DNA of 64,000 bases from Prochlorococcus sp. AG-363-P06 (GTDB lineage: Bacteria; Cyanobacteriota; Cyanobacteriia; PCC-6307; Cyanobiaceae): contig QCGD01000002.1 of assembly GCA_003280025.1 (NCBI GenBank), positions 1-64,000 of the forward strand. Direction: 5' to 3'. The first letter of the stretch is position 1, and each line of letters starts with the position of its first letter. The notes beneath the pieces are model-generated. The model saw nothing but the letters and a program-made list of their open reading frames with translations. It made no database searches and was not told the origin of the DNA. This document shows positions 2,531 to 41,833 of this stretch, piece after piece. The position numbers were made by a program, and so were the translations under genes.

Positions 2531-3772
2531 ATGAGTGATTTCATCTTCACTTCTGAATCAGTAACTGAAGGCCATCCAGATAAGATATGTGATCAAATAA
2601 GCGATGCAGTTTTAGATGCTTTATTGACAGAAGATCCAGAAAGCAGAGTTGCATGCGAAACTGTTGTCAATACTGGACTTTGTTTACTTACTGGAGAAAT
2701 AACTTCAAAAGCAAAGCTTGACTATATCAAACTAGTAAGAGATGTAATTAAAAAAATTGGATATGAAGGATCAAAGGCTGGTGGTTTTGATGCTAATAGC
2801 TGCGCAGTTTTAGTAGCTCTTGACGAGCAGTCACCTGATATTTCTCAAGGGGTAAATGAAGCAGATGATATGAAAGACGATTTGGAAAACAACACAGGGG
2901 CTGGGGACCAAGGAATAATGTTTGGCTATGCCTGCGATGAGACACCTGAAATGATGCCATTGCCAATTAGCTTGGCTCATAGATTAGCAAGACAGCTTGC
3001 CAAAGTAAGACATGAAAAAGTTCTGAATTATCTACTGCCTGATGGGAAAACTCAAGTAAGTATTGATTATAAAGAAGGTATTCCAGTTTCAATAAATACC
3101 ATTTTAATTTCAACTCAGCACACTGCTGAGATTGATGGAATTACTAATGAAGCAGAAATTCGTAGAAGGATAACAGAAGATTTATGGCTCAATGTTGTAT
3201 TACCTGCTACTGAAGATTTAGAAATTAAACCAAATAGACAAAATACAAGATTCTTGGTAAACCCCACAGGTAAATTTGTAGTCGGAGGACCTCAAGGAGA
3301 TGCAGGACTTACCGGCAGAAAAATAATTGTCGATACTTATGGTGGATATGCAAGGCATGGAGGTGGTGCATTCTCAGGGAAGGATCCTACTAAAGTTGAC
3401 AGATCAGCAGCTTATGCAGCCCGATATGTAGCTAAAAGTATTGTCAAAGCAAAATTAGCCAAAAAGGCTGAAGTACAATTAAGTTATGCAATTGGAGTCG
3501 CGAAACCAATTTCAATTCTTATTGAAACTTTTGGTACAGGAGCTCTTGCTCAAGCTGATTTGACAGAACTTATTAAAAACAACTTTGATTTAAGACCTGC
3601 AGCAATAATTAAGGAATTTGATTTAAGAAATCTCCCCAAAAAAATGGGTGGTGATTTCTTCAGGGAAACAGCTTCTTACGGCCATTTTGGAAGAAATGAT
3701 CTAAAGCTTCCTTGGGAAAATGTAGAAGAAAAAGCCAACCAATTGATAGAGGCTGCTAAAGTCTTGTTTTAG
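2531..3772 (+). CDS. metK: S-adenosylmethionine synthetase
   Basis: A 413-residue enzyme that makes S-adenosylmethionine from methionine and ATP in the cytoplasm. It shows the family motifs: GHPDKIC at residues 14-20, GAGDQG at 123-128 in the ATP-binding region, and the glycine- and lysine-rich segment [19 protein letters not shown] in the C-terminal third. Cyanobacterial MetK proteins are a little longer than the 384 residues of E. coli, as here. The sugar kinase gene starts eight bases after its stop, which suggests a shared transcript. I saw no recognisable SAM riboswitch upstream. Confidence 0.97.
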
Positions 3773-3780
3773 AATTTTTT

Positions 3781-5013
3781 ATGCGAGATGAATTTTTTGG
3801 AGGATTAGATTTTGGGACTAGTGGTGCAAGAATATCTATAATTAATTTAAAGAAGGAATTAAAATTTTCGAATTCAATTCCGTATGAATACGGCTTTAAA
3901 AATCCCAATTCTTGGAGTAATTCTTGTGAAAAGCTTCTAGATAGTTTACCTCTTCATATAAAAAGTAATATTGTTAAATTATCCATCTCTGGTACATCTG
4001 GAACTTTAATAGCATGCAATTTAATAGGGGATCCTATAGGAGAAGCAATACCTTATGACCAAGCATGTAATGATAATAAGAAACTTATTGAATCGTTATC
4101 TATTGGAGAAGATCATTTACAAACCCCATACAGTAGTCTGGCTAAAGCATTAAAACTCATAGATAAATATGGAAAGAATATTCTTTTAAGACATCAATCT
4201 GATTGGATAACGGGATGGTTGTTGAAAGATTGGACGTATGGAGAAGAAAGTAATAATCTTAAACTAGGCTGGGATCTAATAAAAGAATCATGGCCAAAAA
4301 GTTATCTCAATACCTCATGGTTAAAAAGTTTGCCTCTTATCATTAAAAGTGGCAAAAATATGGGCCAAATCCATTCTCACTTAGCAGAGAGGTTGAAATT
4401 AAATAAGAGAATAATATTAATATCAGGGACAACTGATTCAAATGCAGCTTTTTTAGCTGCTGGATTAGAGAAAGAAGAAGGTCTAACAGTTTTAGGGACC
4501 ACTATCGTAGTTAAAAAAATTGTTAATAAACCAATAAAAGAAAAAGGGATTACAACCCATCGGGTATTTAGGGATTGGATATGTGGAGGAGCATCAAACG
4601 CTGGATGTGGAATTTTATCTAAATTTTTTTCCGATTTGGAAATAAAAGAACTTAGCAGACAAATAAATACATCAAAAAAAACTTATATAAATCTCTTACC
4701 ACTCAATAGTAGGGGCGAAAGATTTCCAGTTAACAATCCTTTTTTGGAGCCAATTCTTAGTCCTAGGCCTGTAAGCGACTCACTTTATTTACATGCATTA
4801 TTCGAGGGACTAGCTAGGATTGAATTACAAGGGTGGGAAAAACTATATGAGATGACAGGTTCGCTTCCAAAAAGGATAATTACTATTGGTGGTGGTTCAA
4901 AAAATCCGCAGTGGAGAGCAATAAGAGAAAAAATCATTAATATACCCATAGTTTCATGCAAAAAAACAACGTCCTTTGGCACTGCTTTATTAGCACTTCA
5001 TGCAAACAAATAG
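3781..5013 (+). CDS. FGGY-family carbohydrate kinase
   Basis: A 410-residue sugar kinase of the FGGY/ASKHA fold. The N-terminal phosphate loop is GGLDFGTSGARISII near residue 7, a second domain carries GTTDSNAAFLAAGL, and the adenosine motif IGGGSKNPQW lies near the C-terminus. It is shorter than xylulokinase or glycerol kinase (about 490-500). Cyanobacterial and plant relatives of this compact form have been linked to D-ribulose or xylulose phosphorylation; I infer a pentulose substrate but cannot fix it from sequence. It follows metK by eight bases. Confidence 0.8.
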   Translation: MRDEFFGGLDFGTSGARISIINLKKELKFSNSIPYEYGFKNPNSWSNSCEKLLDSLPLHIKSNIVKLSISGTSGTLIACNLIGDPIGEAIPYDQACNDNKKLIESLSIGEDHLQTPYSSLAKALKLIDKYGKNILLRHQSDWITGWLLKDWTYGEESNNLKLGWDLIKESWPKSYLNTSWLKSLPLIIKSGKNMGQIHSHLAERLKLNKRIILISGTTDSNAAFLAAGLEKEEGLTVLGTTIVVKKIVNKPIKEKGITTHRVFRDWICGGASNAGCGILSKFFSDLEIKELSRQINTSKKTYINLLPLNSRGERFPVNNPFLEPILSPRPVSDSLYLHALFEGLARIELQGWEKLYEMTGSLPKRIITIGGGSKNPQWRAIREKIINIPIVSCKKTTSFGTALLALHANK

Positions 5014-38760: not shown

Positions 38761-39879
38761 TTACCACGTATGGTGTGCAATGGAGGAAGTTTTCCAAGGA
38801 GCGAAATCAATTGTAAAACAATTATCTTTAATTGCAGAAGAAATAGCATTGGTAAATCGTATTAAATGAGAGATATTATGCAAGCTGATCAAGGTAAGTC
38901 CTAATATTTCATCATTTCTAATTAAATGATGCAAATATGCTCGAGAATAAGATTGGCAGGTTTCACATTTACAAGTGTTGTCTATTGGAGAGAAATCACT
39001 TTTAAAACGAGCATTACGCATATTCAATCTTTCATCATTGAACAAAGCAGTTCCATGTCTTCCTAGTCTTGTTGGTAAAACGCAATCAAAAAGATCGAAT
39101 CCTTTTGCTATGGCTAATGTAATCTCATTTAAAGAACCAATTCCCATTAAATATCTTGGTTTTCCTGTTGGTAAGAATTTTGGTACAAAATTAATTACAT
39201 TATGAATTTGATCAACTGATTCTCCAACGCTAACACCTCCCACTGCAATTCCAGGCAAATCAAAAGAGCTAGTAAATTTAGCACTCATTTCTCTGAACTT
39301 GGGGTATTTACCACCTTGAACGATCCCAAATAATGCTTGATTTGATTTCTGATGAGTTTCAACGCATTTTTGCAACCATAAATGTGTAAGTTGCAAAGAG
39401 TCTTCAATATCATTTTCGTTTGCAGTGTGAGGCGGACAGTGGTCGAAAGCCATTGCAATATCAGAACCAAGATCCATTTGTATCTCCATTACTTTTTCAG
39501 GTGATAAAAACACATGACTACCATCTCTAGGGTTTTTAAATTCCACCCCTTCATTTGAAATATTATTTAATTTAGCTAAGCTAAACACTTGATATCCACC
39601 TGAATCGGTAAGAATTGGCTTATCCCAATTCATGAATTCATGTATTCCACCTGCCTCTTTAACGAGTTTCTCGCCAGGTTGAAGATGAAGATGGAATGTA
39701 TTAGACAGAATCATTTCTGATCCTGTTGAATTTAACTGTTGAGATGATAGACCTTTAACTGTCCCTAAAGTACCTACAGGCATAAACCTAGGAGTATTAA
39801 CTCGACCATTAGGTGTGTGGAATATACCTGTTCTAGCTTCTGTATTACAGCAATTTGAGGTAACTTCAAATTCAAACAC
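38761..39879 (-). CDS. tgt: tRNA-guanine transglycosylase
   Basis: A 372-residue enzyme that exchanges guanine 34 for a queuine precursor in GUN-anticodon tRNAs. It shows [14 protein letters not shown], the catalytic-aspartate [15 protein letters not shown], the substrate loop [27 protein letters not shown] and the zinc site [19 protein letters not shown]. Length is normal. It precedes psbK by 33 bases on the same strand. Confidence 0.96.
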
Positions 39880-39954
39880 GAGAAATTATAAATTTTTTTG
39901 ATTATTTTTTATTAATCTAACTTATTATTCAATAAATAAATCCATTTTTGACCC

Positions 39955-40719
39955 ATTAAACAACATTTAATTAGAAACCTTGCAGGAGCTTGGATTTTCT
40001 ACACGACCTTTCCAAAGATACCTTTCATTGCTCCCCGATTCAAGAATATTGCCCAATTTGCACCGATTCTTGGATTCCTTATTGGACTAATACAAAGTTA
40101 TATTTTTATTTTCTTAAGAACATATTCGTGGTCCATTTATGCTTCTGTCCTGATTTGTTTAGCTTCTGGATATGTAATTACTGGGGGTCTACATCTAGAT
40201 GGATTAATGGATACTTTTGATGGTATTTTTGCTGGCGAAAAGAAGCGATTAAAAGCCATGAAAGATAGTAAAGTTGGTTCTTTTGGTGTTCAGTCTATAG
40301 TCTTCATAACCTTAATTCAAATAGCTTGTCTTTTAAAAATTCAAACCCAAATAATATTTGTTTTGCCAATATGCTTATTTTGGGGACGATTTTCCAATTT
40401 ATTTTTTATAGATCAATTTAACTATATTAGTTACAAGAAAAAATCTATAAGTCACAAAAAGTGTTGGAATGGATTTACCAAAGAATCCTTGATCTCTATA
40501 GTTTTTCTTATAATTTTCATCACATATAAATGTATTTTATTAAACTCAGAGCAAAAATTAATTAAAAATTTATTTCTTCTATTAATCGGCTGTTTTATAA
40601 GTTATAAAATTCCAAATATTCTAGGTAAAAAAATTGGCGGTTTTAATGGAGATGCCTGCGGAGCAAGCGTTGTTATTGTTGAAACAGCAATGTTATTCAT
40701 TCATGCAATTTTGCTATAG
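39955..40719 (+). CDS. cobS: Adenosylcobinamide-GDP ribazoletransferase, no standard start codon
   Basis: A membrane enzyme that joins the nucleotide loop to adenosylcobinamide-GDP, completing cobamide synthesis. The frame holds the CobS features RNLAGAWIFYTTFPKIPF, ITGGLHLDGLMDTFDG, AMKDSKVGSFGV and IGGFNGDACGA, with about seven membrane helices. In-frame stop TGA 39949-39951 bounds the gene, and no ATG, GTG or TTG occurs in frame before ATG 40207, which would remove about 84 residues including the conserved N-terminus. ATT 39955 or ATT 39970 is the best candidate start (254 or 249 residues). The end overlaps the Hik2-like gene by 23 bases. Confidence 0.85.
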   Translation: MKQHLIRNLAGAWIFYTTFPKIPFIAPRFKNIAQFAPILGFLIGLIQSYIFIFLRTYSWSIYASVLICLASGYVITGGLHLDGLMDTFDGIFAGEKKRLKAMKDSKVGSFGVQSIVFITLIQIACLLKIQTQIIFVLPICLFWGRFSNLFFIDQFNYISYKKKSISHKKCWNGFTKESLISIVFLIIFITYKCILLNSEQKLIKNLFLLLIGCFISYKIPNILGKKIGGFNGDACGASVVIVETAMLFIHAILL

Positions 40720-41833
40720 GAAGTGCTAAGTAAAAAATATTTTTCTTTTTAACAATGTTTAAATCATCAACATCATTATTTGAATAACCATCTAATAATG
40801 TTAAGTCTCCCCCAATTTGTTTTGCTAATTTCCTAGCTAAAAAAAGTCCAACCCCTGTACCCTCCTTTTTCTTAGAAGCTACTCCTCGAAAACCTTTTTG
40901 AAAAATTTTATCTTTCTCATTCTTTGTTATTTTTTTTCCGTCATCAAAAACGACAAGACCTTTAGCCGTAAAAGCAATCCCAATCTCAGCTTCTTTTTTT
41001 GCATATTTAAATGCATTTTCTAATACATTGGCTACGATTTCAGCAATCACACCATATTTTGATTCAATTGCTTTCAATGTCCAATCTGGCCATATAGCAG
41101 GTTGTGTCCAAGCTCTTTTATCTAAATTGGCGTTAGCTTTACCTCTTTCTAATATTGGGTGTAATAAATTCTGAACAGTAATTATTTTGTCATTATCCAA
41201 TTTAGGAGGTAGCAATAATCTCTCTTCTCCTATATCTAAAGGGAGTTTGATAGATACATTTAATTTTTCAAAAGAGTCAACATACTGGTTAATTTGATTT
41301 TGTTCTACCATCATGCTTTCAACAATTTCTATAGAGTCATTATCTGTTCCAAGTCTTTTTATTAATAATTTGGCATAAGTTCTAATCGCAGCCAATGGAT
41401 TTCTTAATTGATGAATTACAATGCTTACCTGACTTTTTAAGTAATTTATTTCTTCATTACTAGTTTGACGTTCCATTTCAATAGAAACACAGTGCGCTAA
41501 AGAAATAGAGAGTGCTTTTAACCTAGAATCAAGATTTATTGGCCAATTTCCGTCTTTAAAATTAGTTTCTACTCTAAGAACACCGAGTAAAATGTCATTT
41601 TCTTGTAAGGGGTACCATCTCCTAGTAGGTTCTGAAACTTTTAGTGTAGGATCATCATCTATAGATATTAAAAGCCTATCAACTTGAGGCCACTGACCAA
41701 TAATTTCAAAAGTAGCTTTATTCCCATGCCTAGCTATAGCAATATATATAACTAAATGAGTCACTCCCATAGAGCATCCGAAACTCTCTAGCTGTTTTAA
41801 AATTAGATCTTCAAATTTCTGGGAAATTTTCAT
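40697..41833 (-). CDS. hik2: Hik2/CSK-like sensor histidine kinase
   Basis: A 378-residue soluble kinase. An N-terminal GAF-like domain (residues 1-120) includes Cys20, placed like the cysteine linked to an iron-sulphur cluster in Hik2/CSK. The H-box is IHQLRNPLAAIRTYAKLLI with phosphoacceptor His141. The ATPase domain has the N-box ANVLENAFKYA, G1 FDDGKKIT and G2 GTGVGLFLARKLA. There is no membrane segment and no adjacent response regulator. Hik2 relatives relay plastoquinone redox state to photosynthesis genes; a similar role here is inferred. Gene symbol is by family resemblance. Confidence 0.82.
   Translation of the reverse strand: MKISQKFEDLILKQLESFGCSMGVTHLVIYIAIARHGNKATFEIIGQWPQVDRLLISIDDDPTLKVSEPTRRWYPLQENDILLGVLRVETNFKDGNWPINLDSRLKALSISLAHCVSIEMERQTSNEEINYLKSQVSIVIHQLRNPLAAIRTYAKLLIKRLGTDNDSIEIVESMMVEQNQINQYVDSFEKLNVSIKLPLDIGEERLLLPPKLDNDKIITVQNLLHPILERGKANANLDKRAWTQPAIWPDWTLKAIESKYGVIAEIVANVLENAFKYAKKEAEIGIAFTAKGLVVFDDGKKITKNEKDKIFQKGFRGVASKKKEGTGVGLFLARKLAKQIGGDLTLLDGYSNNDVDDLNIVKKKNIFYLALPIAKLHE

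Follow-up and report, generated by a model that had tools for sequence, protein, structure and literature searches.

A conserved ATC or ATT codon as the probable start of cobS in Prochlorococcus

The reading frame of the vitamin B12 gene cobS of the ocean bacterium Prochlorococcus sp. AG-363-P06 raises the question of where translation begins in a gene that has no usual start codon at its 5' end. The window is the whole stretch of 64,000 nucleotides that was analysed (GenBank contig QCGD01000002.1, positions 1 to 64,000), from a genome of 1,694,833 bases in 19 contigs. As a first-pass annotation of this DNA had described, and as is confirmed here, the cobS frame follows a TGA at 39949-39951, has in-frame ATT codons at 39955 and 39970, and contains no ATG, GTG or TTG before ATG 40207. 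That annotation took one of the two ATT codons to be the best candidate for the start, the alternatives being a recent mutation of the start codon and an erroneous base. The features discussed are collected in Table 1.

The product of this frame belongs to Pfam family PF02654, scoring 142.7 bits against a cut-off of 23.2; the match spans residues 12-247, numbered from 39955. The NCBIfam equivalog cut-off for CobS is missed with TIGR00317 (88.9 bits vs 110), and five PRK00235 models are likewise under their cut-offs, although all six families matched are CobS, for which reason the plain reading is that the protein is a divergent CobS. Among the matches listed, the nearest named relatives are AG-436-C05, AG-402-K10 and AG-436-O11, with 94%, 93% and 91% protein identity, respectively. 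A sequence search for a solved CobS structure that could serve as a guide to the N-terminus returned none at E<=1. Both cobU and metH were found in the genome to which the window belongs, so that there is a use for the pathway in which CobS acts. No peculiarity was noted in the CobS protein itself; the oddity is its start codon.

Table 1. Features at the cobS locus and at three other genes of the same genome. Coordinates are those of the window unless a locus handle precedes them.
Feature	Location	Strand	Basis
cobS, adenosylcobinamide-GDP ribazoletransferase	39955..40719	+	254 codons and stop; PF02654, frame kept in same-genus loci
Proposed start codon ATT (AUU)	39955..39957	+	ATC 111/113, ATT 2/113 same-genus loci
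In-frame TGA immediately upstream of cobS	39949..39951	+	Excludes an in-frame start farther upstream in this genome
CobS motif GGLHLDGLMDTFD, containing ATG 40207	40183..40221	+	Sequence read; ATG 40207 kept in 113/113 loci
AT-rich block upstream, candidate promoter -10 region	39920..39936	+	TTATTATT here, ACCCTATTATTTAATAT commonest form in the genus; placed by position only
tgt (queuine tRNA-ribosyltransferase), divergent neighbour	38761..39879	-	Window ORF and profile match
crtR (beta-carotene hydroxylase)	L251:7285-8316	+	472 bits, just under cut-off of 475
DNA-3-methyladenine glycosylase	L251:8808-9383	+	TIGR00567, 128.3 vs 116.35
Unnamed gene, without NCBIfam match	L255:7465-8343	-	Open reading frame comparison

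Start regions were taken from 124 loci of the same genus (30 loci drawn from the 175 of 200 genomes that gave matches, the 80 best out of 183 matches, and 14 more), which on removal of duplicate sequences left 113 distinct loci; codons are numbered with the A of LAGAW as codon 0. At the codon that corresponds to ATT 39955, 111 of the 113 have ATC and two, the window and locus L093, have ATT; none has ATG. Between the upstream stop and the conserved core, down to codon -5, 107 of the 113 loci, the window among them, have no ATG, GTG or TTG, and an in-frame TTG, GTG or ATG is present upstream, at codons -15 to -52, in 6 of the 113. On this comparison, the missing canonical start in cobS of the genus is more than chance. 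The near-invariance of ATC in the column is itself unusual, since in the same loci ATC makes up only 184 of the 2544 isoleucine codons in the 23 further columns of cobS where isoleucine is conserved; two of these 23 columns are also mainly ATC.

The retention of ATC or ATT at this codon across the genus looks like an inherited feature, neither a mutation nor a sequencing mistake. That a recent mutation, or an error in the base, removed an ATG is hardly credible. The presence of ATT in only two of the 113 loci would be in keeping with such an event, but the other 111 have ATC, none has ATG, and were the T an error the relatives would indicate that ATC, and not ATG, should stand in its place. 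The alignment with relatives that the first-pass annotation had proposed as a check has therefore turned against two of its own alternatives.

Mean pairwise diversity was calculated for each position of the codon over the 113 loci, with rows anchored without gaps, so that indels inflate the values upstream. For positions 1/2/3, it is 0.254/0.260/0.257 in codons -30 to -21, 0.248/0.229/0.224 in codons -20 to -11, and 0.117/0.085/0.085 at codon -10. At the ATC/ATT codon it is 0.000/0.000/0.035, and in the eight codons after this it is 0.047/0.020/0.131. Because the diversity is flat upstream and codon-periodic from the ATC/ATT codon onward, this codon is, as judged from the alignment, the coding boundary at which coding-type constraint on cobS begins. 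The stops and frame-changing indels that are present upstream of cobS in relatives lead to the same boundary. The step in diversity thus coincides with a near-invariant codon of the AUU, AUC, AUA or CUG kind.

With the boundary at this codon, the missing ATG can no longer be put down to recent mutation or base error, and ATT 39970 is also disfavoured. Of the two ATT codons first put forward, that at 39955 is upheld as the boundary codon, being ATC or ATT in every locus, while 39970 is not, its column being ATA in 100 loci, ATT in 10, TTA in 2, and ATC in 1. A start at 39970, which is likewise ATT in the window, at the codon before 39955, or farther upstream is unlikely: the codon before 39955 varies (CTC in 96, ATC in 7, CCC in 5, and CTT in 5), and the stops and frame changes stand against any more distant start. 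In the window, AUU 39955 is the most likely start of cobS, decoded by the initiator tRNA; codons of this type seldom serve as starts.

Two further routes to the protein have to be weighed. In this genome, TTG 39948 opens TTG ACC CAT TAA in another frame, which could be taken to favour translation of a short upstream ORF followed by a programmed frameshift into cobS. However, the relatives compared have a different base pattern at that place, an ATG in any frame within 60 nt upstream occurs only 6 times in total over the 113 loci, and no conserved upstream ORF was seen before cobS in the same-genus loci; next to no credence can be given to this route. Translation could also begin at ATG 40207 to give a shorter CobS, and relatives that start at an internal ATG had been foreseen as one outcome that would undo the non-canonical reading. 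This ATG is indeed kept in 113 of 113 loci, yet it lies inside the GGLHLDGLMDTFD motif and so, as had been noted, inside the family core. The 84 codons before it, which hold PF02654 profile positions 1-65, have coding-type third-position variation and evolve as protein, whereas a protein begun at ATG 40207 covers profile positions 66-206 of 207 only. The shorter CobS is thus very improbable.

As tgt is divergent, cobS has no closely preceding gene on its own strand. There is a C directly 5' of the ATC/ATT codon in 108 of the 113 same-genus loci. In genes without a Shine-Dalgarno sequence from cyanobacteria and other phyla, a C signal just 5' of the start is described in passages of one study, which also refer to many leaderless mRNAs reported in cyanobacteria, among other phyla (PMC5397173). 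Prochlorococcus marinus is itself tabulated among organisms poor in Shine-Dalgarno sequences (excerpt of PMC10783764). A search of 39500-40300 against Rfam found neither a cobalamin riboswitch nor another known RNA element, its single match being at the level of chance (RF02700, 19 bits vs gathering 52). At the other end of the gene, a histidine-kinase gene (HisKA and HATPase domains; window 40697-41833, minus strand) is convergent with cobS, and the two genes share 23 bases at the 3' end of cobS.

With the start at AUU 39955, the initiator fMet-tRNA would read AUU or AUC with two positions paired and the third mismatched, and the 30S subunit would be placed on the cobS start without a Shine-Dalgarno sequence. 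IF3 would be expected to discriminate against the AUU or AUC of cobS, which would make initiation slow, and from such a weak start CobS would be produced at a low rate. AUU, AUC and AUA are known as bacterial starts, with triplets having a 3' G being those that escape discrimination (extract of PMC4611024). CUG, AUA, AUU and AUC are ranked with AUG, GUG and UUG, these seven being given as the strongest initiators of E. coli (PMC12350097, in part). For AUU read by CAU, raising IF3 in a reconstituted system lowered the proportion of full-length product to 31.1% (PMC10158994, in part). By pattern match, an initiator-tRNA stem-loop pattern, GGGCTCATAACCC, was found in 7 of 7 genomes searched.

The infC gene of E. 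coli, which encodes IF3 and is autoregulated, has an AUU start. The parallel with infC that had been drawn earlier holds for the type of codon, as cobS resembles it in having a conserved, non-canonical AUU-type start on a housekeeping gene, but it does not hold for infC itself. Unlike infC, cobS is not the gene for IF3, and ATG opens infC in all six genomes compared, this one (G000) and five relatives (L246-L250). Since this is so, feedback of the infC type is without basis here, and on these sequences the cobS start is not a case of it.

Outside the genus, cobS was compared in 111 rows covering 36 further genera within the family, in which genome G222 is counted twice in g24 (L174, L196); L142, L159 (the genome of which is covered by L209), and L238 (a fragment) are without the start region and were left out. 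ATG, GTG or TTG is present at codons -16 to -8 in 58 of the 111 rows and only farther upstream in 29, and there is none down to codon -5 in 24. In genus g38, codon -10 is CTG in 14 of 14 rows and there is a canonical codon in none. CTG at codon -10 is seen in 29 rows over nine genera, these rows being mutually related (14 are from g38), and in 27 of the 29 there is a Shine-Dalgarno core 4-14 nt upstream. As a control, the same 4-14 nt interval at 14 other offsets contained the core in 0-3 of the 29 rows for 13 offsets and in 11 of 29 for one (+45). Four of the CTG rows (L129, L145, L149, and L211) also have ATG, GTG or TTG within codons -16 to -8. In other rows codon -10 is TTG (L163, L155, L210, and L212) or ATG (L147), and this replacement of CTG is the behaviour expected of a start.

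In genus g5, it is codon -12 that is ATT (10/16) or ATC (6/16), between flanking codons that are variable at all three positions. There is an ATG at codon -16 or -14 in 3 of these 16 rows and a GTG at codon -21 in 13, the GTG being part of a CCTACGGTGAG motif that is in another frame in other genera, such as in L156; in L202, a g5 row, there is a stop between GTG -21 and codon -12. The CCTACGGTGAG/CCTACGTTG DNA motif recurs approximately 30 bases 5' of the cobS start with varying frame (L202, L156, L173, and other cousin loci), and looks like a promoter element.

From these alignments, the codon at the cobS start is non-canonical, and differs, in several lineages, and some other cousins have ordinary starts. 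A tree of start states for 115 rows (59 canonical and 56 not) leaves 49 of 112 inner branches open and has 17 changes, and its non-canonical state also took in GC-rich genera with a canonical codon farther upstream. Because this tree is weakly supported, no number of origins of the weak cobS starts is claimed.

As several cousin lineages are also non-canonical at this place, with CUG and a Shine-Dalgarno core or with AUU/AUC elsewhere, the weak start of cobS would appear to be an old and maintained property. It would probably restrain the dose of a membrane enzyme that is wanted only in small amounts. ATG is one base change away and yet is found at this codon in 0 of 113 loci, which is why we favour the view that the weak start is kept for low CobS; it is this persistence that points to a limit on the dose. 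A conserved AUU/AUC start that is weakly initiated and limits the amount of CobS is, overall, quite likely, its position coming from comparison and its mechanism being one that we infer.

Neutral persistence is a serious rival to selection for low CobS. The start would then be at the same codon but weak by history only, AUC being good enough and its weakness unselected. This would fit with the conservation of the codon as a boundary, with the occurrence of CTG, TTG and ATG at one same codon among cousin rows, and with the three other genes of the genus that seem to have such starts. The absence of an ATG that is so easily reached, and the differing weak codons at cobS among the cousins, speak against persistence by history, which is a possibility of some weight though short of probable. 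Sister lineages that have AUC, CUG and AUU at the start of one and the same gene offer a natural experiment in whether selection favours weak initiation.

To our knowledge, conserved non-canonical starts of bacterial housekeeping genes are rarely documented. There is no mention of a non-canonical cobS start in Prochlorococcus in the titles and openings of abstracts searched, where subscription journals are thinly covered, which is weak evidence of novelty. Non-canonical starts are of a known kind, of which cobS in Prochlorococcus would be a new case, well supported by comparison. There is a likeness to chloroplast genes, which in these descendants of cyanobacteria-like ancestors have conserved non-AUG starts (PMC9845219, in part). 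Unlike the cobS case, the codons tested in the portion of that study considered here were AUG, UUG, GUG and CUG, its native example was GUG (psbC), and the non-AUG starts were linked to over-expression of high-turnover proteins.

Other genes with such starts were sought among 281 genes (264 kb) of this one genome, compared with stretches of two relatives, a homologue in both being present for 197 of the 281. In 44 of the 281, the first canonical codon is 10 or more codons inside the alignment. These candidates were judged by eye, and most have an ATG, GTG or TTG right behind a short conserved upstream stretch. In four, the N-terminus is conserved but has no canonical start codon: cobS, crtR, the DNA-3-methyladenine glycosylase gene, and the unnamed gene, which we take from its sequence to be ScpA-like. 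These are the clear cases only, a few candidates being set aside, among them some short ORFs and the one at 191823-192299 in sample coordinates. They suggest that such starts are present in approximately one gene in seventy, which is a lower bound, as the survey picks up only long gaps.

The last three genes were each compared in 14 same-genus and 15 cousin rows. For crtR, the coding boundary is ATT in 14/14 same-genus rows, with a stop three or four codons 5' of it in 3/14, and an ATG is near that place in 13/15 cousin rows. The glycosylase start seems, from the alignment, to be ATA in this genus (14/14 by eye, and 13/14 in the automatic alignment, where one row is shifted by a codon), with a GTG farther upstream in one of the 14; at least 9 of the 15 cousin rows have ATA, ATC or ATT at the start place. 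In the case of the unnamed gene, the boundary codon is ATA in 10/14 and GTA in 4/14 same-genus rows, and TTG is found in 15/15 cousin rows, either at the boundary codon or one codon before.

It is conceivable, if rather doubtful, that in marine picocyanobacteria a few genes (cobS, crtR, the glycosylase gene, and perhaps a fourth) form a conserved, translation-level set with weak AUU, AUC, AUA or CUG starts. The output of this set would be tied to IF3 and to the state of the initiation machinery, and cobS would have kept a weak start across several lineages even as its codon changed. For annotation, a gene caller restricted to ATG, GTG and TTG would shorten CobS here by 84 residues, and would remove over 50 residues from CrtR and over 50 from the glycosylase of the same genome. 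A glutathione synthase gene (L254, approximately 3700-3830, plus strand) was rejected as a weak-start case, as its N-terminal part and the rest are in different frames. The break falls near a run of A and is either genuine or an artefact of assembly.
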